This document shows positions 10,540 to 33,128 of a DNA stretch of 59,530 nt, piece after piece. Each line of letters opens with the position of its first letter. Within the stretch, counting starts at the first letter, position 1. The notes under the pieces were generated by a model that made no database searches, was not told where the DNA came from, and saw only the letters and a list, made by a program, of their open reading frames with translations. Origin of the DNA: Akkermansia muciniphila (GTDB taxonomy: Bacteria; Verrucomicrobiota; Verrucomicrobiia; Limisphaerales; BJHT01); assembly GCA_945861535.1 (NCBI GenBank), contig CAMAUZ010000046.1, positions 1 through 59,530 on the forward strand. Direction: 5' to 3'. Both the position numbers and the translations under genes were made by a program.

Positions 10540-11697
10540 TCAAGACCGGCGATGGATGTGGACGTTTTGTAAAAGGCCCGCGGCGATCAACGAGCAGAGC
10601 ACTGAGGATCCGCCATAACTTAAGAGCGGCAGTGGCACGCCCGTCACGGGCATCAACCGAATATTCATGCCGATATTGATGAAGACGTGGCAGCCGAGGA
10701 GGGTGACGACCCCCACGGCCAGCAGTTTGCCGAGGCGGTCGCGCGCCTCGCTGGCAATCCGAATGCCCACGAACAGAACCACCGTGTAGAGCGTGAGCAC
10801 GATCACGCTGCCCACGAACCCACTCTCCTCGGCGATGACGGAGAAAATGAAGTCGTTGTGGGCCACGGCGCGCGGCAGGTAGCCGAGGGCGTTTTGCGTC
10901 CCCCGCATCCAGCCTTTGCCGGTGAGACCACCGGAACCGACCGAAATGAGCGCCTGCACGATGTTGTAGGAATCGGCGCGGCCGACTTCCCGGCCAAAAA
11001 ACACGAGCAACCGGCGGCGTTGATATTCCTCCAGCTTGATCTGCCAGTTGGGCGGCGCGAACAGGATGTCCACCAGCAGAAGGAGGATCAGCAATCCCGT
11101 GCCGCCCACCAGATTGGCGAGGTAGCGGCCCGGCACGCCGGCGACAAACATCATCGCCAGGCCCACCGGCAGCAGCAGCAGGGCCGAGCCGAGGTCCGGT
11201 TCCTTGAACACGAGCAGGAACGGCAGGACGATCATGCCGAGGGCTTTGAAGAAATTGTTGAGCTGGCGCAGTTCGTCCTTGGGCCGACTGAGGAAGTGGC
11301 CGAGCGCGAAGATGAGCGAGAGCTTGGCGAACTCGGAGGGCTGGAACTGAAAGAAGCCGAGGTCGATCCAGCGGCGCGCGCCGTACCGCATCGAGCCGAT
11401 GCCGGGGATCAGGACCGCGGCGAGGAAAAGGATGTTGGTCCAGTAAAAGATGAGCGCGAAGCGGGCGATGCGCTGGTAGTTGATGGCGCACACGAGGACG
11501 GCACCGACGAGGCCGATGGCGCACCAGACGCCCTGCTTGAACCAGACCTGCCGGTGAAAGGGCGCGCTGGCCGCCGCGGGGTTCACCATCGTGGCGCTGT
11601 AGATGAACGCCACGCCCACAGCCATCAACCCGAGCAGCGCCAGGATCAGGAGCCAGTCGAACTCGGCGAGGAAGTTTTTGGCGGTGGTGGATTTCAT
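10540..11697 (-). CDS. rodA: Rod-shape-determining peptidoglycan polymerase RodA
   Basis: 385 residues from the ATG at 11697; longer upstream frames run into repeat sequence. The protein is a SEDS-family polytopic membrane protein with about ten helices. It opens with a hydrophobic helix (LLILALLGLMAVGVAFIYSA) and keeps SEDS landmarks such as FQPSEFAKL and FKEPDLGSA, plus a C-terminal GVPLPLLSYGGSS. RodA polymerises lipid II glycan strands in the elongasome together with PBP2, which is encoded just upstream on the same strand. Unusually, the two genes are 394 bp apart and the gap holds repeat sequence. Confidence 0.95.
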   Translation of the reverse strand: MKSTTAKNFLAEFDWLLILALLGLMAVGVAFIYSATMVNPAAASAPFHRQVWFKQGVWCAIGLVGAVLVCAINYQRIARFALIFYWTNILFLAAVLIPGIGSMRYGARRWIDLGFFQFQPSEFAKLSLIFALGHFLSRPKDELRQLNNFFKALGMIVLPFLLVFKEPDLGSALLLLPVGLAMMFVAGVPGRYLANLVGGTGLLILLLLVDILFAPPNWQIKLEEYQRRRLLVFFGREVGRADSYNIVQALISVGSGGLTGKGWMRGTQNALGYLPRAVAHNDFIFSVIAEESGFVGSVIVLTLYTVVLFVGIRIASEARDRLGKLLAVGVVTLLGCHVFINIGMNIRLMPVTGVPLPLLSYGGSSVLCSLIAAGLLQNVHIHRRS

Positions 11698-12091
11698 GCG
11701 GGCCTCCGCGGTGGGTTTGGGGCGTGCGGCTGTAGCCGCCGACGTGAGGAGGCGGAGGGCTGCGGCGAGCGGTGGGAATTCACGCGGGCGAACTCGCGGG
11801 CGGGCCGCCCGCGCTCCTGGCGTAAGCCGCTCGGGCGCGCGATGGCAGCGGGTTGTTCGGATGTGCCGTTCGCGTTCCCCGTTGAAGCGGCGTGAACGCC
11901 GCGCTCTTGGCGCGCGTCGCGCCGGGGAGCGCACGCCGCTGGCGTGCCGTTTTCGGCGGCTCGCCGAAAACCTCGTGCCACTAACTTTTCCCCGCTGAAG
12001 AAAAGGCTGACTGGGGAACGGCGGTTTGGGCGGGCCGCCCAAACCGGCACGCGGGCCGCGTGCGCTCCCCGTTTGGTTTCGCAGCTCAGCT
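11698..12091. repeat. Repeat-bearing gap inside the mre operon
   Basis: No gene is recognised. The gap holds a 25 bp stretch (11732-11756, GTAGCCGCCGACG...GGCGGA) that is identical to 22767-22791. It also holds short hairpins of the type GGCGTGAACGCCGCGCTC (about 11889-11910), GGCGGCTCGCC (about 11955) and two GGGCGGGCCGCCC-like stems (about 11800 and 12030). The content looks like an aggregate of REP-type elements between mrdA and rodA. Confidence 0.65.
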
Positions 12092-23426: not shown

Positions 23427-24314
23427 CTACTTCTGCTTCCCCACCCGCTTCGTCGCCGGCGCCTTCAACGCTTTGAACTCCCGCGTCAGCGACGTCAGCG
23501 ACGCCTCGATGCCCATGCGTTCGAGGCTGCTCGCGCCGACGAAGCCGACGGCGTCGGTGTTTTGCAAAACGCGCCCGGCGTCCGCGGGCGTGTTGATCGG
23601 GCCCCCGTGGGCGAGGAAGAAGATGTCTTTCCGCACGCGGCGCGCGGCGGCGATGATTTCCTGCGTGCGTTGGATCGCGAAATCCCACGTCACCACCGCG
23701 TTTTTCACACCGATGCTGCCGCCCACCGTGGTGCCGACATGGGCGATGATCGCGTCCGCGCCCGCCTTGGCCATCGCGACCGCTTCGTCCGGCGTCGCGA
23801 CATAAACGATGGAGAACAGGTCCATTTTCCGGGCCAGCGCGACCATCTCGAATTCCTTCTGCACACTCATGCCGGTCTCCTCGAGCACGCCGCGGAAGTG
23901 ACCGTCCACAATCGTGTGCGTCGGGAAATTGTTCACGCCGCTGAAGCCCATCTCCTTCACGCGCCCCAGCCAGTGCCACATCCGGCGGCGCGGGTCCGTG
24001 GCGTGAACGCCGCAGATCACCGGCACTTCCTCCACGACCGGGAGCACCTCGTATTCGCCAATCTCCATCGCGATGGCGTTGGCGTCGCCGTAGGCCATGA
24101 GGCCGCAGGTCGAGCCGTGGCCCATCATGCGAAAGCGCCCCGAGTTATAGATGATGAGCAGGTCCGCGCCGCCCTGCTCGATGAACTTGGCGCTGATGCC
24201 CGAACCCGCGCCGGCGGCGATGATGGCGTCGCCTTTTTTCAACGTGGCGCGCAGCCGCTCCACGACTTCTTTGCGGGTGTAGGGATTACCTTTTCCAGTC
24301 CACGGGTTCGGCAT
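23427..24314 (-). CDS. TIM-barrel protein of the phosphoenolpyruvate hydrolase-like family (PF09370 type)
   Basis: 295 residues, cytoplasmic, no signal peptide. Family-like segments include AAGAGSGISAKF near the N-terminus, GGADLLIIYNSGR, VPVICGVHATDP, THTIVDGHFRG, IIAHVGTTVGG and FFLAHGGPI. Proteins of this family are annotated as PEP hydrolase-like or TIM-barrel signal transduction proteins, and their bacterial chemistry is poorly defined. They often stand beside Tm-1-like (UPF0261) genes, which are absent here. The gene is divergent from the MFS transporter at 25.2 kb, and the 856 bp between them is packed with palindromes. A role in the same carbon-source pathway is inference from position. 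Confidence 0.82.
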   Translation of the reverse strand: MPNPWTGKGNPYTRKEVVERLRATLKKGDAIIAAGAGSGISAKFIEQGGADLLIIYNSGRFRMMGHGSTCGLMAYGDANAIAMEIGEYEVLPVVEEVPVICGVHATDPRRRMWHWLGRVKEMGFSGVNNFPTHTIVDGHFRGVLEETGMSVQKEFEMVALARKMDLFSIVYVATPDEAVAMAKAGADAIIAHVGTTVGGSIGVKNAVVTWDFAIQRTQEIIAAARRVRKDIFFLAHGGPINTPADAGRVLQNTDAVGFVGASSLERMGIEASLTSLTREFKALKAPATKRVGKQK

Positions 24315-24683: not shown

Positions 24684-25075
24684 TGGAGCGCCGGCCTCCG
24701 ACCCCGCGGCCTCCGACCCGCGGCCTGCGAGCACGATGGCACTGCGCGCCGGATCGGAGATCGGCGCTCCGCAGGGGCTGCTATGCCGCGTCGAGACCAG
24801 TGTCGAGCTGCGCCCCGACCGCAGCCGCGGGGAAATTTTTTCTGGCCACACCCGGAGCCGCAGTCATAAACACGGGCATTCATCCGCCACTCCATTTGCC
24901 CAGCATGAAACCGCGCCGCAGCGGCCCGGATTATTGCCAGGCGGAGACAAGGCTCCGGCAAATTCCCAGCTCCCTTGGTTCAATGAACGCGCGCTCCCTC
25001 ACGCCGGCCCGCCCCCGCTGGGGACGGCGGAATCGCCACCCGCTCCCGGCGGGCGATGGTTGGCGTGAGGGAGAA
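24684..25075. repeat. Further palindromes upstream of the MFS gene
   Basis: Arms GGAGCGCCGGCCTCCGA (about 24684) and TCGGAGATCGGCGCTCC (about 24752) match in 15 of 17 positions. A second pair, CTCCCTCACGCC near 24990 and GGCGTGAGGGAG near 25063, lies just before the transporter gene. No promoter could be recognised in this repeat-filled stretch. Confidence 0.6.
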
Positions 25076-25170
25076 CCGCTCCGAACTCCCAGCCACGCAG
25101 CGAACAACCCGGACCATCGCGATCGTTGCCGCGCATGGCGCGCCACCAACCGAACGCCAGCGCCGCTCGC

Positions 25171-26496
25171 ATGACCACCGCCGCCGCCACCGAATTCCCC
25201 GACCTCCGCCGCAAGGTCGCGTGGCGCACGCTGCCGCTCGTATTCGTGCTCTACATCGTCGCGTATCTGGACCGCGCCAATGTCGGCTTCGCGAAGCTGC
25301 GCATGGCCGCCGACCTGAAATTTTCCGAGGAAGTGTTCGGCCTCGGCATCGGGATTTTCTTCATCGGCTACCTGCTGCTCGAAATCCCCGGCGCGCTCCT
25401 GGTCGAGCGCTGGAGCGCACGGAAATGGTTCGCCCGCATTCTCATCTCGTGGGGCTTCATCTCGGCGCTCACGGCCTTTGTCCGCACGCCGATGGAATTT
25501 TACGTCGCGCGCTTTTTGCTCGGCGTGGCGGAGGCCGGATTCTTTCCCGGCATCATCGTTTACTTCACGCACTGGTTCACGAGCCGGGACCGCGCGCGGG
25601 CGCTCTCGGGACTCGTCATGGCGGTGCCGTTCAGCCTCGCGCTGGGCGCGCCAGTGTCGGGCCTGCTGCTCGACGTGAACTGGCTCGGGCTGGCCGGCTG
25701 GAAATGGCTCTTCATCGTGGAAGGTCTGCCCGCCGTCGCGCTCGGCGTCGTGACGTTGCTCTGGATGACCGACCGGCCGCGCCACGCGCAATGGCTCACG
25801 CCCGCGGAGCGCGATCATCTCGAAAACCAGCTCGCCGCCGAGGCGCGCGCCAAGGACAGCGGCGGCGGCACGACCGTCTGGCAGGCGCTGCGGCTGCGCA
25901 ATGTCTGGCTGCTCGCGCTCGGCATTTTCGCCGCCAACACCGGCGGCTACGCCCTCGCCTTCTGGCTGCCGACGACGGTGAAGAATCTCTCGCAAGGCTC
26001 GGACCGCGCGACCCTGCTCTACAGCGGCCTGTTTTTCGCCTGCGGCATGATCGGCGTGTATGTCTCGGGGCAATCCTCCGACCGCAGCGGCGACCGCAAA
26101 TGGCATTGCGTCGGCGGCATGGTCGCGACCGCGCTGTGCCTCGCGGGCAGCGCGCTTCCCGGCCAGCCGTTCCCGCTCGTGATGACCTGGCTGTTCGCCA
26201 CCGGGCTGGTCGCGTTTTTCTGGCCGTCGCCGTTCTGGGCGCTGCCGACCGTCACGCTCACGGCCTCGACCGCCGCCGTTTCCATCGGGTTCATCAACAT
26301 GCTCGCGAACCTTGCGGGCTACTTCGGCAACCACTTCACCGGCTGGCTGCGCAAGCACGACGCGACCGAAAGCACCTGCTTGTTCTTCCTCGCCGCGTGC
26401 TATTTGCTCGGCGGCATCGTCGTCAGTTTCGTGAGCGTGAAAAAGACCACCACCGCCGGCCCGCCGCCGCCATTGCAACCCGATTTCAAAACATGA
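25171..26496 (+). CDS. MFS transporter, anion:cation symporter (ACS) family
   Basis: 441 residues from ATG 25171 (an ATG at 25126 would add a charged 15-residue leader). Twelve hydrophobic segments are readable. The loop after helix 1 has YLDRANVGFAKLRM, a mark of ACS-family carriers for tartrate, hexuronates, phthalate or other organic anions. The central loop carries the second basic motif (VSGQSSDRSGDRKW). The gene overlaps the following hydroxyacid dehydrogenase at ATGA, so the two are co-translated. This points to import of a sugar acid or hydroxy acid that the dehydrogenase then oxidises, or whose product it reduces; the substrate cannot be read from the sequence. Confidence 0.88.
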   Translation: MTTAAATEFPDLRRKVAWRTLPLVFVLYIVAYLDRANVGFAKLRMAADLKFSEEVFGLGIGIFFIGYLLLEIPGALLVERWSARKWFARILISWGFISALTAFVRTPMEFYVARFLLGVAEAGFFPGIIVYFTHWFTSRDRARALSGLVMAVPFSLALGAPVSGLLLDVNWLGLAGWKWLFIVEGLPAVALGVVTLLWMTDRPRHAQWLTPAERDHLENQLAAEARAKDSGGGTTVWQALRLRNVWLLALGIFAANTGGYALAFWLPTTVKNLSQGSDRATLLYSGLFFACGMIGVYVSGQSSDRSGDRKWHCVGGMVATALCLAGSALPGQPFPLVMTWLFATGLVAFFWPSPFWALPTVTLTASTAAVSIGFINMLANLAGYFGNHFTGWLRKHDATESTCLFFLAACYLLGGIVVSFVSVKKTTTAGPPPPLQPDFKT

Positions 26497-27470
26497 ACGC
26501 TGCCCAACCCACCGTGGTCATCACCGACTGGACCTTCCCCGACCTCGGCGTCGAGGCGGGAATCTTCCATGCCCATGGCCTCCAACTCCTCGCGCGCCAG
26601 TGCAAGTCCGAGGCGGAACTCATCGCCCTCTGCACCGACGCGGACGCGGTCATCACGCAATTCGCGCGCGTGAATGCCAACGTCATCGCCGCCCTAAAAA
26701 AAGCGCGCGCCATCGTGCGCTACGGCATCGGCGTGGACAACGTGGACCTCGACGCAGCCCGCGCGCGCGGTATCCCCGTGTGCAATGTGCCGGACTACTG
26801 CATCGACGAAGTCGCCGACCAGACGCTCGCTTTCATCCTCGCGACGACGCGCCAGGTCGTGACCCACGCGACCCATCTGCGCGCCGGCAAATGGGGCCTC
26901 GCGACGCCGCTCGCGGGCATGAAGACGCTGCGCGATCTCACGGCGGGCGTCGTCGGCTGCGGGCGCATCGGACGCGAGGTGGTGAGGCGCTTGCTCGCGT
27001 TCAAGTGCGCCGTGCTGGTGTTCGACCCCGTGGTACCGGCCGCCGAAATCGAGAAGCTCGGCGCGCGCTCCGTGAGCTTTGGCGACCTCCTGAGAAACGC
27101 GGACGTGCTCACGCTCCACTGTCCCTCCACGCCGCAGACGCGCCGCCTGATGAATCGCGAGGCCTTCGCGCAGCTCAAGCCTGGCGCCATTTTCATCAAC
27201 GTGGGCCGCGGTGATCTCGCCGATCCCGACGCGCTCACCGCCGCGTTGCAAAGCGGCCACCTCGGCGCGGCGGCGCTCGATGTGTTCGATCCCGAACCCA
27301 TTCCCGCCGGCCATCCGCTGCTCGCGATGCCGAACGTCATTCTCGCCCCGCACATCGCCTCGTGCAGCGTGCCCGCGGTGAAAAAACTACGCGAATCCGT
27401 GGCCCACATCGCGCTCGCCGCCGTGCGCGGCGAGGCGCTGACCACGGTCGTCAACGGAGTGAAACGATGA
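26493..27470 (+). CDS. D-isomer-specific 2-hydroxyacid dehydrogenase (CtBP/SerA-like)
   Basis: 325 residues, start ATG overlapping the MFS stop. The NAD-binding Rossmann motif is GCGRIG at 155-160, followed by Asp in VFDPV. The catalytic triad of the family is present: Arg239 (NVGRGD), Glu268 (FDPEP) and His287 (APHIAS). It lacks the ACT domain of full phosphoglycerate dehydrogenases and resembles C-terminal-binding-protein-like members. The reaction is reversible conversion of a D-2-hydroxy acid and NAD(P)+ to a 2-oxo acid. Its neighbours (transporter upstream; SDR and an E1-type decarboxylase downstream) suggest that it makes or uses the 2-oxo acid of this pathway. Confidence 0.9.
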   Translation: MNAAQPTVVITDWTFPDLGVEAGIFHAHGLQLLARQCKSEAELIALCTDADAVITQFARVNANVIAALKKARAIVRYGIGVDNVDLDAARARGIPVCNVPDYCIDEVADQTLAFILATTRQVVTHATHLRAGKWGLATPLAGMKTLRDLTAGVVGCGRIGREVVRRLLAFKCAVLVFDPVVPAAEIEKLGARSVSFGDLLRNADVLTLHCPSTPQTRRLMNREAFAQLKPGAIFINVGRGDLADPDALTAALQSGHLGAAALDVFDPEPIPAGHPLLAMPNVILAPHIASCSVPAVKKLRESVAHIALAAVRGEALTTVVNGVKR

Positions 27471-27477
27471 GCGCCCG

Positions 27478-27571
27478 GAGCGCGGCGGGTACGCCGCTTC
27501 ACCGTTCCACCGTCACGGCGCGTTCGGTCCCGCCCGACTGCCCCACGCTGAAGCGGCGTAAATGCCGCGCC
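27478..27571. repeat. Inverted pair of GAGCGCGGC...GCCGC hairpins
   Basis: Arms at about 27478-27503 (GAGCGCGGCGGGTACGCCGC then TTCA) and 27547-27571 (TGAAGCGGCGTAAATGCCGC) face each other. The same hairpin type occurs at 48629-48732, in the mrdA-rodA gap and at the ends of the 51.7/59.4 kb element. Confidence 0.65.
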
Positions 27572-27602
27572 CCCCGCACCGAGCAGTCGGCCCGCGGCCA
27601 GC

Positions 27603-27704
27603 GTACCGCAGGCGTCCCGCCTGCGAGTTCGGGCGGCGTCTCGCCGCCCGTTCCGACTCGGGGCAAGACGCCCCGCAGACTCGCAGACCGGACGCCTGCG
27701 GCAC
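27603..27704. repeat. GTTCGGGCGGC-family palindrome, copy 2
   Basis: The left arm GTACCGCAGGCGTCCCGCCT (from 27603) and the right arm ending at 27704 are complementary in about 23 of 26 positions. The centre has GAGTTCGGGCGGC, a GCCGCCCGTTCC stem and GGGGCAAGACGCCCC. It is the shortest of the three copies. Confidence 0.75.
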
Positions 27705-27790
27705 CCATGCGCCGTCGCACCTTGGCGGCGGATCGGGAGTTAAGCTGCGGCCTTCCCCCCGCCACCGTCCCTCGCTCCCCAAAACGGATT

Positions 27791-27866
27791 GGGCAAAGGA
27801 ATGGAGGCAAAGGAATGGAGGCAAACAATTCCCGTCCCCATTCCTTTGCCTCCATTCCTTTGCCCC
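27791..27866. repeat. Inverted pair of GGCAAAGGAATGGA arrays
   Basis: The left arm (27791-27818) carries two units of the 14 bp motif. The right arm (27838-27866) is its reverse complement, with one mismatch in about 29 bp. A related but weaker pair built on GGCAGACGAATGG follows at 27900-27962, just before the SDR gene. Confidence 0.75.
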
Positions 27867-27985
27867 AACCTCCGCTGCCCCTCTCCCGAAACACCGCTTT
27901 GGCAGACGAATGGGAAAGGACAAATTCCTTTTTGTTATTCGTCTGCCCCGATTCGTCTGCCAATTCCATCCCCGCATTTTCACCT

Positions 27986-28861
27986 ATGATTTCCCCCTTG
28001 TTTGATCTCACCGGCAAAGTCGCCCTCGTCACCGGCGCCGCCCAAGGCCTCGGCCGCGCCATGGCCACCGCGCTTGCCGAAGCCGGCGCCGACGTGCTGC
28101 TCGTGGACCGCAACGAAGCCGGTGCGCGGGAAACCGCCGCAACCCTGGACAAGCTTGGCCGTCGCGCCCTCGCGGCCGGCTGCGATGTCTCCGACCCGAC
28201 GCAGATTCGCGAACTCTTCCGCCGACTCGACACCGAGTTTGGCCGCATCGATTTCCTCGGCAACGTCGCGGGCGACGGCATCCTCGGCCCCCCCGAAGAC
28301 ATCTCCCTCGATGACGTGGAGAAATGCTGGCGCAACCTCGTGCTCGGCCGCTTCTGCGCGTGTCAGGAAGCGGGCCGCCGCATGCTGCCCGCCGGACGCG
28401 GGAGCATCGTGAACATCGGCTCCCTCGCGAGCATCACCGCGCTCGGACGCAGCCACATCGCCTACAGCATGGCGATGGGCGCGGTCGCGCAGATGACCCG
28501 TGAACTCAGCACCGAGTGGGCCGGCCGCGGCGTCCGCGTCAATGCCATCCTCCCCGCGCAAGTGATCAATCCCGGCCTGCAACAGCGCATGGCCGACCAC
28601 CCCGCCCTCCGCGAAAAATTCCTCAGCGGCATCCCCGCCGGACGCTTCGGCCAGCCCGATGACATCCGCGGACTATCGGTGCTCCTCGCGTCCGATGCGT
28701 CGAGCTGGATCACTGGCGCACTTATCCCGATGGATGGAGGGAATCTCGCTGTGAATGCGGGCGGCTCGGTGGGGCCGCGGACAGGGAACAGGGAACAGGG
28801 GACAGGGGACAGGGGGCAGGGGACAGGGGGCAGAAGACAGGAAGCAGAAATCAGGAAATAA
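27986..28861 (+). CDS. Short-chain dehydrogenase/reductase lacking the catalytic lysine
   Basis: 291 residues from ATG 27986. A classical SDR fold with TGAAQGLG (about 16-23), the usual N-x-A-G position present as NVAG, Ser146 (NIGSLAS) and Tyr160. The residue four after Tyr is Met164 (YSMAM) where almost all active SDRs have Lys; codon ATG at 28475-28477. The C-terminal 28 residues, after WITGALIPMDGGN, are glycine/arginine/glutamine-rich and are encoded by a GGGGACAG-type heptamer array, so the natural end was probably nearer residue 263. The next gene begins 19 bp later. The protein may be inactive, structural or use an altered mechanism. Confidence 0.85.
   Translation: MISPLFDLTGKVALVTGAAQGLGRAMATALAEAGADVLLVDRNEAGARETAATLDKLGRRALAAGCDVSDPTQIRELFRRLDTEFGRIDFLGNVAGDGILGPPEDISLDDVEKCWRNLVLGRFCACQEAGRRMLPAGRGSIVNIGSLASITALGRSHIAYSMAMGAVAQMTRELSTEWAGRGVRVNAILPAQVINPGLQQRMADHPALREKFLSGIPAGRFGQPDDIRGLSVLLASDASSWITGALIPMDGGNLAVNAGGSVGPRTGNREQGTGDRGQGTGGRRQEAEIRK
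28783..28858. repeat. Heptamer array (GGGGACAG type), left flank of the four-helix-bundle gene
   Basis: Degenerate 7 bp units (ACAGGGA, ACAGGGG, GCAGGGG) run through the last codons of the SDR gene. The reverse-complement array stands on the other side of the small gene at 29278-29344. Confidence 0.85.
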
Positions 28862-28880: not shown

Positions 28881-29264
28881 ATGGCTGTTCGAACAGCGAA
28901 GGAACTTACGGTTTACAAAAAGGGGTATGCGCTCGCGATGCGGGTATTCCAGATCAGCAAGCGCTTTCCCACCGAGGAGCGCTTTGCCCTCACCGGTCAG
29001 ATTCGGAGATCATCCCGCTCCGTCTGCAACAATTTGCGCGAAGCGTGGGCCAAGCGTCGCTATCCCTCCCACTTTGTCAGCAAGCTCACTGACTGCGACG
29101 GCGAGAGCAACGAAACCGATACGTCTCTAGATTTTGCCAAGGACTGTGGCTACATCACCGACGCTGAGCACCTTGAACTCAAAGCTCTCAACACCGAAGT
29201 CTGCAAAATGCTCGGCTCCATGATAAACAACCCCGATCCGTTCCTCCTTCCCCCCACACGCTAA
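28881..29264 (+). CDS. Four-helix-bundle protein (S23/IVP family)
   Basis: 127 residues. Family-like segments are ELTVYKKGYALAMRVFQISK, FPTEERFALTGQIRRSSRSV, a conserved-looking NLREAWAKRRY and an FVSKLTDCDGESNE stretch, so the S23 (23S rRNA intervening-sequence protein) family call is firm. Members are common in PVC bacteria and cyanobacteria; many are not in rRNA, and their function is unsettled. Some related bundles are the Avd accessory proteins of diversity-generating retroelements, but no reverse transcriptase or variable repeat is seen here. The gene is flanked by inverted heptamer arrays, and its TAA stop overlaps the ATG of E1 (TAATG), which suggests insertion between SDR and E1. Confidence 0.9.
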   Translation: MAVRTAKELTVYKKGYALAMRVFQISKRFPTEERFALTGQIRRSSRSVCNNLREAWAKRRYPSHFVSKLTDCDGESNETDTSLDFAKDCGYITDAEHLELKALNTEVCKMLGSMINNPDPFLLPPTR

Positions 29265-31333
29265 TGCAAACTACGACGACTGCCCCCTGCCCCCTGTCCC
29301 CTGTCCCCTGTCCCCTGCCTCCTGTCCCCTGTCCCCTGTCCCTCTATCGCACCATGCAGCTCATCCGCCACACGGAAGAGCAGCTCGCCCGCTGTCACCA
29401 GCGCGGACTCATCCACGGCGCGTGTCACACCTACGTCGGGCAGGAAGCCATCGCGACAGGCGTGTGCTCCCACCTCCGCAGCGATGACGTGGTCTTCAGC
29501 ACCCATCGCGGACACGGACACGCGCTGGCCAAAGGAATGCCACCGGTTGAACTCATCGCCGAACTGTTCGGGCGCGCGAGCGGCTGCTCCCGCGGGCGCG
29601 GCGGCTCGATGCACCTCTTCGCGCCTGAGATAGGGATGATGGGTACCAGCGGCATCGTGGGACCGAGCATGTTACAGGCGGCAGGTGCGGGCTATAGCTT
29701 CAGACTGCTCAAGACCGACCGGGTCGCCGTGGCGTTCTTTGGTGATGGCGCGGTGAACAATGGCGCGTTCCATGAGGCGTTGAACATGGCGAGCATCTGG
29801 CGGCTGCCAGTGCTCTTCGTGTGTGAGAACAATCAGTTCGCCACCGAGGTTCCTTTCCAGCATGTCGCCGGGAATCCGAGTGTCGCCAGTCGGGGCGCGG
29901 CCTACGGGATTCCGGGAGTCGAGGTGGATGGCAACGATGTGACTGCCGTGGCGCAGGCCGCCGCCACCGCCGTGCAGCGCGCCCGCTCCGGCGGCGGACC
30001 GACTCTGCTCGAGTGCAAGACCTATCGCACGCGGCCGCATTCCGAAGGCATGGGAGACTATACTTATCGCACGCGCGAAGAAGTCACCGCCTGGCGCGAG
30101 CGGTGCCCGATCAAGCGGCTGCGCGCTGGACTGCTGGAACAGAAGCTCGCAACGGCGGCGGAGTTCGATGCCATCGACGCGGAGATAGGGGCCGAGGTGG
30201 CGGCGGCGAATCAGGCGGCCGAGCAGGCGGCGGCACCGGACGGAGCGGTGGCCACGACGCATGTCTATTGTGAGGAGTCAGGAGACAGGGGACAGGGAGC
30301 AGGGGACAGGGAGCAGGGGACAAGGGGCAGGAGTCAGGGGGCAGGGGAGAAGAGTCAGCGGGAAATCTCATTCGTGGCCGCGACGGTGGAGGCATTGGAT
30401 TATGAGATGGCCCGCAATCCGGGAATCTTTGTGCTCGGGGAAGGAATCGGCGTGCGCGGGGGTAACTTCGGCACCACGACGGGCCTGTTTGCCAAGTATG
30501 GGGCCGAGCGCCTGCGGGACACGCCCATCTGCGAGCGTGGATTTGTCGGTTTGGGCTGTGGCGCGGCTATGACAGGTACCCGGCCGATCATTGACTTCAT
30601 GTTCATCGACTTCCTCAACGATGCCTTCGGCGAACTCATCAACCAAATCGCCAAGATGCAATATATGAGCAGCGGCCGGCTGCGGATGCCCATTCTCCTG
30701 CGCGGTTGCATCGGCATCGGGCACGCGGCGGCGACACATCACTCGGGTAGTTATCACTCGATCTACAGTCACATCCCCGGCCTGCGCGTCGTGGTGCCGT
30801 CCACGTCCTACGATGCCAAGGGATTGTTCACCCGCGCGCTGCGTTGCAGTGACCCGGTGCTGTTCCTCGAGCCGCGCGAACTCATGACGACCAAAGGACT
30901 CGTGCCCGCCGAGTCTTACGAAATCGAATTCGGCCAGGCCCGCATCGCCCGCGAGGGCCGTGATGTCACGGTGGTCGCCATCGCATTGATGGTGCAGCGC
31001 TCGCTCGCCGCCGCGGAACTGCTCGCAAAGGAGGGTATCTCGGTCGAGGTCATCGACCCGCGCACGGTCTCGCCACTGGACACCGGGACTATTCTCGCTT
31101 CCGTGAAGAAGACCGGGCGACTGCTCATCGTGGACGAGGCTTTCTCCCCCTGTAGTCTCGGCGCGGAAATTGCCGCCCAAATTGCCGACACCGGCTTCGA
31201 TGACCTCGACGCCCCCATCCGCCGCCTCAACGGTGCCTTCGCCCCCACCCCCTACAGCCCGCCGCTGGAGCGGGCCGTGATACCGCAAGTCGATGACGTG
31301 GTGGCGGCCATCCGAGACCTGTTGAGCGAATGA
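29264..31333 (+). CDS. Fused E1 alpha-beta subunits of a 2-oxoacid (pyruvate/acetoin-type) dehydrogenase
   Basis: 689 residues. The alpha part (about 31-337) has the thiamine-diphosphate motif GDGAVNNG (about 160-167) ending in ENN, and the GRGGSMH and YRTRPHSEG segments. The beta part (about 367-689) has GEGIGVRGGNFGTT, RFMFI-like core IIDFMFIDFLNDAF, and the C-terminal VDEAFSPCSLGAEI transketolase domain. I keep ATG 29264 because the family-like LYRTMQLIRH continues upstream of the internal Met; the preceding 28 residues (repeats of C-P-L-S/P-V-P) are encoded by a CCCCTGT array. The inter-domain linker (about 338-366, G-D-R-x-Q-G-x repeats) is also array-encoded. E1 decarboxylates a 2-oxo acid and loads the acyl group on a lipoyl arm, which the next gene supplies. 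Confidence 0.9.
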   Translation: MQTTTTAPCPLSPVPCPLPPVPCPLSLYRTMQLIRHTEEQLARCHQRGLIHGACHTYVGQEAIATGVCSHLRSDDVVFSTHRGHGHALAKGMPPVELIAELFGRASGCSRGRGGSMHLFAPEIGMMGTSGIVGPSMLQAAGAGYSFRLLKTDRVAVAFFGDGAVNNGAFHEALNMASIWRLPVLFVCENNQFATEVPFQHVAGNPSVASRGAAYGIPGVEVDGNDVTAVAQAAATAVQRARSGGGPTLLECKTYRTRPHSEGMGDYTYRTREEVTAWRERCPIKRLRAGLLEQKLATAAEFDAIDAEIGAEVAAANQAAEQAAAPDGAVATTHVYCEESGDRGQGAGDREQGTRGRSQGAGEKSQREISFVAATVEALDYEMARNPGIFVLGEGIGVRGGNFGTTTGLFAKYGAERLRDTPICERGFVGLGCGAAMTGTRPIIDFMFIDFLNDAFGELINQIAKMQYMSSGRLRMPILLRGCIGIGHAAATHHSGSYHSIYSHIPGLRVVVPSTSYDAKGLFTRALRCSDPVLFLEPRELMTTKGLVPAESYEIEFGQARIAREGRDVTVVAIALMVQRSLAAAELLAKEGISVEVIDPRTVSPLDTGTILASVKKTGRLLIVDEAFSPCSLGAEIAAQIADTGFDDLDAPIRRLNGAFAPTPYSPPLERAVIPQVDDVVAAIRDLLSE
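29278..29344. repeat. Heptamer array (CCCCTGT type), right flank of the four-helix-bundle gene
   Basis: About nine degenerate units of CCCCTGT/CCCCTGC. It is the reverse complement of the 28783-28858 array and is translated as the proline-rich N-terminus of E1. Confidence 0.85.
30277..30362. repeat. In-frame heptamer array inside the E1 gene
   Basis: Degenerate GGGGACAG-type units in the coding strand. Three heptamers equal 21 bp, or seven codons, and the translation repeats every seven residues (GDRGQGA, GDREQGT, RGRSQGA). It separates the alpha and beta parts of E1. Confidence 0.88.
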
Positions 31334-31640
31334 GAGTAGCAGGCGACAGGGGGCAGGAGACAGGAGACAGGAGTCAGACCGACTCCTATCGCGAGCCAGT
31401 AAACTTGCTGGCCGTTCTCCCTCACCCCTGCCCTCTCCCGCTGGGAGAGGGAGCCACGCAGCCCGCGTTGGTTGACAAGAGAACGCTACGGTTGGTCGGG
31501 ACGGCGGCGAACATTCTCCCTCTCCCAGCGGGAGAGGGCAAGGGTGAGGGAGAAACTGTGCGATGCCCCAGCCCCAGCCGATTTCACCGCGACTCATCTG
31601 TCCCCTGTCTCCTGCCCCCTAACTCCTGACTCCTCTCCCT
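31332..31640. repeat. Nested cassette without a gene: heptamer arrays around a CCCTCTCCC palindrome
   Basis: The outer pair comprises a GGGGGCAGGAGACAGG-type array at 31332-31378 and its complement at 31596-31637. Inside, arms 31415-31453 and 31516-31554 are reverse complements with one mismatch in 39 bp and contain CCCTCTCCCGCTGGGAGAGGG. The 60 bp centre has no ORF. It fills the whole gap between E1 and the lipoyl-epimerase gene. Confidence 0.85.
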
Positions 31641-33128
31641 ATGCCCATTGAAATCATCGTTCCCCGGCTCGGTTGGTCCATGGAAGAAGGCGCGTTCGTC
31701 GCGTGGCACAAGCGCGACGGCGAGCTGGTCAAGGCCGGTGAGCCGCTCTTCAGCATCGAGGGTGACAAGGCCATCCAGGAGATCGAGTCCATCGACAACG
31801 GTATCTTGCGCATCGCAGCGAACTGCCCGAAGCCGGGCGCGGCGGTGCGCGTTGGCGATGTGCTCGGACACCTGGTTGCAGCCGCCGAACTAACGCCGGC
31901 TGCCAAATCGGCGAGCGCGAGTCCGGTCGCCGCGCCGCCGCCAGCCACAGCACCACAGCACGTGGCGGAAGCTGCTGCGGTCACGCCAGCCGCACCGCCT
32001 GTTCCAGCGGTCGCTCGCATCGCCAGCGTTCCTGCCATCAGTCCGCGGGCGCTGCGGGTGGCGGGGGAGCTGGGTGTGGACTGGACTAAGTTGAGCGGCA
32101 CGGGTCGGACCGGCCGCATTCGTGAGCGAGACGTGCGTGCCGCAGTCCCTACCAGCACGGCCGCCCCCATGGCTCCGGTCACCTCCTCGGTTGGCCAGGC
32201 TGCGACTGTCCTTGTCACCGGCGGCTGTGGGTTCATCGGAACCTGGGTGGTGCGCGAGTTGGTGGGACGCGGACTACGCGTGGTGGTGCTGGATGCGGGG
32301 GAACGCCCGGCGCGCTGGGGACGGGTCATCGGCGCGGCGAGCGAAGACGTGTCACTCGTGCAGGGTAGTCTGCTGGACCGGGAGTCACTGGCGCGGGTTT
32401 TTGCAGAGTATCAGGTCACTCAGGTCATTCATCTGGCCGCGCTGCTAACGCCCGCGTGTCAGTCCGATCCTTGGGAAGGCTGCCGCGTGAACGTGCTCGG
32501 CACGGTGGCGTTGCTGGAACAAATCCGACTGTCTCCCATCCGCATCCAAGGTTTCTCCTATGCCAGCTCAGTCGCGGTGTTTGGCGATGAACCCGACCAC
32601 GCCCAGAGTCTCTCGGAGGGAGAGAGTCAGCCCCTGACCTTCTACGGTGTGTTCAAGAAATCCGTGGAACTGATCGCTGCGCAATACTGGCGGGAGTTTC
32701 AAATAGCGTCTGTCGGCATCCGCCCGCAGGTGGCCTACGGACCGGAGCGCGAGGTCGGTCTGACCGCCGGGCCGTCGCTGGCCGCCCGGGCCGCCGCGCG
32801 GGGCGAGAGTTATTGCATCAGTTACACCGGCAAGGTGGGTTGCGATTATGTCGAGGACGTGGCGCGGGCCTTCGTCCGCGGCGCATTGGAGACTCCGCCC
32901 GGCGCACCGGTCGTCGATCTCTCCGGCGAGGTGGCGGATGTCAGTCAGATCATCGCCGCCATCGTCGCCGTGGTGCCGGAGGCCGCCCCGAGACTATCGC
33001 TGAGTGGTCCACCCATTCCCGCCCACCTGCCACCCAGCCCACGCCCCATCGCTACTCTCTATCCTGACTGGAAAACCACCTCCCTTGCCGAAGGTATCCG
33101 GCGCACGGTTGAGTTCTATCGAGTGTAA
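31641..33128 (+). CDS. Lipoyl domain - E1/E3-binding domain - NAD-dependent epimerase/dehydratase fusion
   Basis: 495 residues. Residues 1-80 form a lipoyl domain with the lipoylation site Lys43 in EGDKA. An Ala/Pro-rich linker (about 81-130) leads to a peripheral-subunit-binding domain (about 132-167: SPRALRVAGELGVD ... GTGRTGRIRERDV). After a short linker, residues about 188-495 form an extended-SDR NAD epimerase/dehydratase with TGGCGFIG (about 193-200), a Ser-rich strand FSYASSVAVFGD, and catalytic Tyr335-GVF-Lys339. The acyltransferase domain (with HxxxD) that normally follows in E2 is absent. The first two domains should bind E1 (and E3) and carry acyl groups; the third should bind NAD(P). 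No E3 or normal E2 is in the window. AcoC-type E2 proteins with an alpha/beta-hydrolase in place of the acyltransferase are the nearest known analogy. Confidence 0.9.
   Translation: MPIEIIVPRLGWSMEEGAFVAWHKRDGELVKAGEPLFSIEGDKAIQEIESIDNGILRIAANCPKPGAAVRVGDVLGHLVAAAELTPAAKSASASPVAAPPPATAPQHVAEAAAVTPAAPPVPAVARIASVPAISPRALRVAGELGVDWTKLSGTGRTGRIRERDVRAAVPTSTAAPMAPVTSSVGQAATVLVTGGCGFIGTWVVRELVGRGLRVVVLDAGERPARWGRVIGAASEDVSLVQGSLLDRESLARVFAEYQVTQVIHLAALLTPACQSDPWEGCRVNVLGTVALLEQIRLSPIRIQGFSYASSVAVFGDEPDHAQSLSEGESQPLTFYGVFKKSVELIAAQYWREFQIASVGIRPQVAYGPEREVGLTAGPSLAARAAARGESYCISYTGKVGCDYVEDVARAFVRGALETPPGAPVVDLSGEVADVSQIIAAIVAVVPEAAPRLSLSGPPIPAHLPPSPRPIATLYPDWKTTSLAEGIRRTVEFYRV

Follow-up and report, generated by a model that had tools for sequence, protein, structure and literature searches.

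A lipoyl and peripheral-subunit-binding arm joined to an extended SDR in a 2-oxoacid dehydrogenase operon, and its counterparts in related genomes

In the window, the whole 59,530-nucleotide stretch of DNA, the gene following a ThDP-dependent E1 encodes a chain that begins like an E2 dihydrolipoyl acyltransferase and continues as an NAD-dependent epimerase/dehydratase of the extended SDR family. This raises the question of what a lipoyl arm does where the acyltransferase domain (CAT; PF00198, 2-oxoacid_dh) has given way to an unrelated enzyme.

Table 1. Coordinates of the fusion, its operon and related fusions (rows with an L handle refer to catalogue loci, all others to the window)
Feature	Coordinates	Strand	Basis
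MFS transporter	25126-26496	+	Pfam; NCBIfam on L026 ortholog
D-2-hydroxyacid dehydrogenase	26493-27470	+	Pfam on longer ORF 25056-27470; conserved order
Classical SDR (operon gene SDR1)	27986-28861	+	Pfam on longer ORF 27362-28861; conserved order
E1 alpha-beta fusion (ThDP 2-oxoacid dehydrogenase)	29264-31333	+	Pfam, NCBIfam TIGR03182/NF006667, PDB relatives
Lipoyl-PSBD-extended SDR fusion, 495 aa	31641-33128	+	ORF, Pfam, motifs
Lipoyl domain of fusion, Lys43 codon at 31767	31650-31868	+	Pfam PF00364, residues 4-76
Ala/Pro-rich linker of fusion, 58% A+P across residues 81-130	31881-32030	+	
Peripheral-subunit-binding (E3_binding) domain of fusion	32037-32138	+	Pfam PF02817; same position in whole-genome search
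Extended SDR (NAD-dependent epimerase/dehydratase) of fusion, TGGCGFIG, Ser309/Tyr335/Lys339	32199-33125	+	Pfam, motifs
Lipoyl-PSBD-PfkB kinase fusion, L026	7608-9197		
Lipoyl-PSBD-PfkB kinase fusion, L027	8345-9940		
Lipoyl-PSBD-PfkB kinase fusion, L029	2304-3911		
Lipoyl-PSBD-PfkB kinase fusion, L030	8365-9975		
Lipoyl-PSBD-classical SDR fusion, L091	3144-4439	-	
Lipoyl-PSBD-classical SDR fusion, L092	8631-9923	+	

The fusion protein and its operon

The reading frame of the fusion is uninterrupted from ATG to TAA (Table 1). Pfam matches, each above its cut-off, correspond to a Biotin_lipoyl domain (residues 4-76, 1.2e-10) with Lys43 lying within an EGDKA motif at residues 40-44, a peripheral-subunit-binding domain (PSBD; E3_binding, residues 133-166, 3.4e-9) with the motif GTGRTGRIRERD at residues 153-164, and an Epimerase domain (PF01370, residues 190-413, 2.7e-32). 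The SDR carries TGGCGFIG at residues 193-200, Ser309 in SYASS, and Tyr335 and Lys339 in YGVFK, and Pfam gave no match to PF00198 in the chain. An earlier note on this DNA had read these same parts by eye (a lipoyl domain with EGDKA, a PSBD, a full extended SDR with TGGCGFIG and YGVFK, and no acyltransferase region), and the domain searches bear it out throughout. In the structure predicted from alignment A1 (mean pLDDT 63), values are mostly above 70 for the lipoyl domain, the PSBD and the first Rossmann half, and mostly below 70 after about residue 310.

Three further genomes, each a different database record, carry the fusion at full length with the same three Pfam domains, at 83% identity in G001 of the same genus (locus L023), 68% in G004 (L024) and 69% in G880 (L025). 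A frameshift or assembly join, which the earlier note had named along with absence from all relatives as grounds for dropping its reading, is therefore ruled out. An E2-like chain without CAT adjoining an E1 was found to be conserved across three genera of three families.

The five genes of the operon lie on the same strand in the conserved order of MFS transporter, D-2-hydroxyacid dehydrogenase, classical SDR, E1 and fusion, with E1_dh, Transket_pyr and Transketolase_C domains identified in the E1. The L026 ortholog of the transporter is nearest to the D-galactonate transporter model TIGR00893, at a score below its cut-off, and some other loci add genes for a gluconolactonase-like protein, a KDPG aldolase, an FAH-type hydrolase and a malate:quinone oxidoreductase. 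From its gene content (MFS transporter, hydroxyacid dehydrogenases and SDRs), the cluster looks like one for sugar-acid catabolism. Also seen were an apparent inverted repeat, recognized by eye as ctctcccgctgggagaggg and its complement, in the gap between E1 and fusion (31400-31640), and a PEP_hydrolase-like gene (PF09370) upstream of the operon on the opposite strand (23427-24314).

Replacements of the acyltransferase across related operons

Ordinary lipoyl-PSBD-CAT E2s were identified in the same operon in G207 (L028/L047) and G020 (L011/L070), where Pfam confirmed them, and in G860 (L032/L095), where the E2 was assigned by similarity. In all three the same extended SDR is a separate gene directly after the E2, with a 4-base overlap in G207 and spacings of 7 bp in G020 and 26 bp in G860. 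In view of this adjacency the fusion fits a loss of the stretch from the PSBD to the start of the SDR; at L025 the sequence MPSVLVTGG is retained at the join, as if from a former SDR start. Free relatives of the SDR on Sagittula and Caballeronia plasmids neighbour transporter and sugar-enzyme genes.

Using the fusion as query at E <= 1e-28, and counting one row per genome (with catalogue L-loci paired to G-handle loci), we obtained matches in 45 of 320 genomes of the order, three of them in the SDR part alone and 42 with a lipoyl-PSBD arm. CAT is present in 30 of these 42, including G742, which is cut inside CAT by a contig end, and absent from 11, while the contig of the remaining one, G865, ends before CAT. 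The 11 CAT-less genomes comprise four with the extended-SDR fusion, four with a kinase fusion, two with a classical-SDR fusion and one with the arm only (G248); a further arm-only genome, G452, falls outside the order and is not among the 42. With the E1 as query and E <= 1e-180, matches were obtained in 18 of 384 genomes of the class and 6 of 387 of the phylum, the present genome and G108 occurring in both sets. The type count leaves out the class genomes G225, G045, G108 and G210, whose E1s are about 50% identical and whose E1 frames include a lipoyl domain. Distant E1 alpha-beta fusions of about 50% identity, with a lipoyl domain ending the same frame, were observed at L061, L062, L063, L064 and L071.

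The kinase fusions of G858, G859, G790 and G041 consist of lipoyl domain, PSBD and a PfkB kinase resembling 2-keto-3-deoxygluconate (KDG) kinase, as identified by Pfam on the catalogue copies L026, L027, L029 and L030. The kinase part of L026 scored 307 bits to KDG kinase 2afb and 442 bits to NF041633, the latter under the model cut-off of 700. In kinase-type loci the extended SDR follows as a gene of its own. Among 14 genomes searched, the kinase part is fused in these four (58-100% identity) and occurs as an unfused copy in G274 (61% identity; next to a KDPG aldolase, with an E1/E2(CAT) pair a few kb away); the other nine held nothing above 41%, and an unfused copy beside an E2 was not seen. 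In G041 the arm-kinase gene and the E1 are on different contigs, and the neighbours of the arm-kinase gene are unrelated.

In G743 and G304 the arm is joined to a classical SDR. At L092 a C-terminal E1 remnant alone precedes the fusion, with other sequence between them; in G304, a 92% complete genome, all that is left of the E1 beside the fusion is a C-terminal piece of about 45 residues. An intact E1 ortholog was not found in this genome, yet the arm still carries DKA. Among the best 45 matches to L091, the fused classical SDR is 60-66% identical to an SDR in 12 other loci, which precedes E1 on its strand in 11 of them and lies on the opposite strand in L072. Identity of the fused domain to the SDR immediately following CAT does not exceed 38%. 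The proposition that every fused enzyme is the gene that directly followed CAT consequently holds for the extended SDR and fails for these classical SDRs. Finally, the CAT-less chains of G248 and G452 consist of lipoyl domain and PSBD only (184 and 169 aa), the SDR of G248 being located elsewhere than the arm. A second short lipoyl protein was seen in G452 (L144, about 11459-12001, minus strand); its frame of about 180 aa matches the PSBD in part and lacks CAT, and a further E1 alpha/beta pair lies a few kb away.

Phylogenetic reconstruction of the E1 used the 51 of 58 chosen loci with a long enough match; the seven loci lacking a usable E1 include G743, in which the E1 is split, G304 with its remnant, and further copies that are partial or split. 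L105, L040 and E1s of about 50% identity were left out of the trees, and two tips were labelled by hand (the unlinked G041 E1 as kinase type, G865 as CAT). In the E1 tree a weakly supported branch (66/72) separates the extended-SDR fusion from the remaining rows; the fusion requires two changes in the arm tree and three in the SDR tree, where a single clade is not rejected (p-AU 0.18). For the arm, a single clade of the four kinase rows with G248 is likewise not rejected (p-AU 0.147). CAT against all other states requires five changes in the E1 tree and four in the arm tree, with starred branches forcing at least two in each. Furthermore, the CAT-bearing G020 sits among CAT-less rows in both trees, and the history is therefore not a single clean loss. 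As far as gene trees record it, these results show that CAT has been lost or replaced more than once in this operon family.

Role of the arm and fate of the acyl group

A spare acyltransferase encoded elsewhere could in principle serve the operon E1. PF00198 places numbered two each in the CAT-less genomes G000, G001, G004, G041 and G452 and one in G248, with none in the operon of any of these six, and three to four, one of which lies in the operon, in the CAT-type genomes G207, G020, G030 and G398. In the CAT-less genomes outside the PF00198 search, PSBD places were counted (two each in G880, G858, G859 and G743, three in G790 and four in G304), and the one of these that was read outside the operon, at C21 of G304, is a full E2. 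In the eight genomes covered by both searches, PSBD places outside the operon adjoin PF00198 places, except for the short second one in G452. The two CATs of G000 are parts of E2s, one (C3) neighbouring a lipoamide-dehydrogenase-like gene and the other (C100) its own E1. The six CAT-less genomes searched accordingly have no dedicated CAT elsewhere, the PF00198 places being E2s unrelated to the operon. With no PF00198 in the operon and other E2s present, the operon E1 is therefore without a transferase of its own in these six genomes. AceE scored above cut-off in seven of eight genomes searched, with G004 matching in part at the end of a contig, and is separate from the operon, on other contigs. 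As a separate observation, the frame of a housekeeping-type E2 in G041 (L080, 6880-9411; 843 aa) extends about 400 residues upstream of the lipoyl domain.

At a probability of roughly one half, we read the fusion as a former E2 that has lost its acyltransferase core, with the lipoyl-PSBD arm now placed at the N-terminal end of a catabolic extended SDR and tethering E1 and E3 to this pathway enzyme. Lys43 would be lipoylated, the PSBD would bind the operon E1 and the housekeeping E3, and E1 would still load acyl groups onto the arm. The fused C-terminal enzyme would provide the new anchor and may act on a soluble metabolite of the same sugar-acid or hydroxy-acid pathway; the occurrence of three different enzyme types in the place of CAT argues for such soluble targets. 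The acyl group would leave by another route, being either hydrolysed or passed in trans to the housekeeping pyruvate dehydrogenase (PDH) E2. We infer the transfer in trans by analogy with Corynebacterium glutamicum, where two E1s are described as working on one E2-E3 in a hybrid PDH-ODH (PMC7568260). Against the tethering role stand the G304 arm without an intact E1, the unlinked arm-kinase gene of G041, and the arm alone in G248.

The first and the last of these cases, together with G452, may also indicate that function resides in the SDR, the arm being a tolerated N-terminal extension, and constraint on the PSBD is weaker in the comparison of G743 with G304 (dN/dS 0.345). However, lipoyl dN/dS, estimated by the Nei-Gojobori method with dS near saturation in distant pairs, was 0.062-0.131 in seven CAT-less pairs, resembling that of eight CAT pairs (0.019-0.218; two mixed pairs gave 0.098 and 0.124), the DKA lysine was retained in 12 of 12 CAT-less chains read, and E1 is constrained in the five CAT-less pairs having one (0.044-0.093). 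These ratios show that, at the level of coding sequence, the lipoyl domain, PSBD and E1 remain under purifying selection, and a leftover arm is in our estimation improbable, although it fares best among the alternatives.

Slightly less probable again is the proposal of the earlier note, in which the SDR site reduces or epimerises the group held on the arm and yields a product other than acyl-CoA. Extended SDR domains of NRPSs and carboxylic acid reductases can reduce carrier-bound thioesters, and the fusion offers a single chain, a flexible Ala/Pro linker, an intact NAD motif and the Ser/Tyr/Lys residues. Yet relatives with a complete E2 encode the same SDR as a separate adjoining gene, the nearest matches of this SDR are GalE-like and aldonate-dehydrogenase-like, and elsewhere its place is taken by a KDG-type kinase, for which an acyl-lipoyl group would be an unexpected substrate. 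The free SDR beside a normal E2, and the same arm bearing a kinase or a classical SDR, are therefore better accommodated by tethering than by special lipoyl chemistry.

The chain might otherwise be an E3-binding protein (E3BP, or protein X), an accessory arm recruiting E1 or E3 to the housekeeping PDH core. A lipoyl domain and PSBD without active CAT match the E3BP plan, and some fungal E3BPs are much reduced, as set out in PMC10156792. This role is nevertheless doubtful, since what follows the PSBD is an SDR, a kinase or no domain at all rather than an E2-like core fold, and the arm is accompanied by an E1 of its own, with AceE located on different contigs. Least probable of all is an E1 that acts as a carboligase or simple decarboxylase with the lipoyl arm for docking only, which would suit the missing acyl-CoA-forming acyltransferase but sits poorly with the conserved DKA lysine and with an E1 83% identical to that of the CAT-bearing G207, which is paired with a normal E2.

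Returning to the tethering reading, the range of C-terminal partners suggests that the arm is re-usable for tethering pathway enzymes. In a broader formulation, which we hold more tentatively and at somewhat less than even odds, the lipoyl-PSBD arm would, in this branch of Verrucomicrobiota, be an exchangeable chassis from which CAT has repeatedly been discarded in favour of an extended SDR, a classical SDR, a KDG-type kinase, all of sugar-acid-type catabolism, or nothing. E1 and lipoyl arm persist in every CAT-less case except G304, CAT having been exchanged or lost. If the chassis formulation is correct, there would be 2-oxoacid dehydrogenase assemblies without an acyltransferase core and with a different fate for the acyl-lipoyl group, and a new type of multienzyme complex would be broader in scope than the earlier note envisaged. 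The series of CAT, extended SDR, classical SDR, kinase and arm only allows the role of the arm without a transferase to be asked, and suggests a natural design for enzyme tethering through lipoyl-PSBD arms.

Comparison with known systems

Word searches of open-licence PubMed Central, in which subscription papers are mostly uncovered, gave among the hits listed no fusion of a lipoyl-PSBD arm to an SDR or a sugar kinase. With E2 dihydrolipoyl acyltransferases the fusion shares the lipoyl domain with its DKA lysine, the Ala/Pro linker, the PSBD and the position after E1, and differs in having an NAD-binding SDR in place of CAT. With extended SDRs (GalE-like, and weakly like D-erythronate dehydrogenase, NF043036) it shares fold family and motifs, but here the enzyme is fused to a lipoyl-PSBD arm; its SDR falls under every NCBIfam cut-off among the best 25 of 26 families. 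AcoC-type acetoin dehydrogenase E2 combines a lipoyl domain with an alpha/beta hydrolase and is similar in that another enzyme follows the lipoyl domain. No alpha/beta-hydrolase fold was matched by Pfam in the fusion, which sets it apart from this type, and the AcoC model NF011457 aligned over model positions 5-149 of 372 only, scoring 65 bits where the cut-off is 307. E2 functions are likewise rearranged between chains in actinobacterial OdhA and the hybrid PDH-ODH, but OdhA itself performs the succinyl transferase step (PMC10415282), unlike the fusion. The nearest precedent for an arm without a transferase is the E3BP/protein X of fungi and mammals, which also combines lipoyl domain and PSBD without a working acyltransferase. 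Whereas E3BP of eukaryotic PDH retains an inactive, E2-homologous core-binding part (PMC10156792), the fusion carries PF01370, an unrelated enzyme, in that position.
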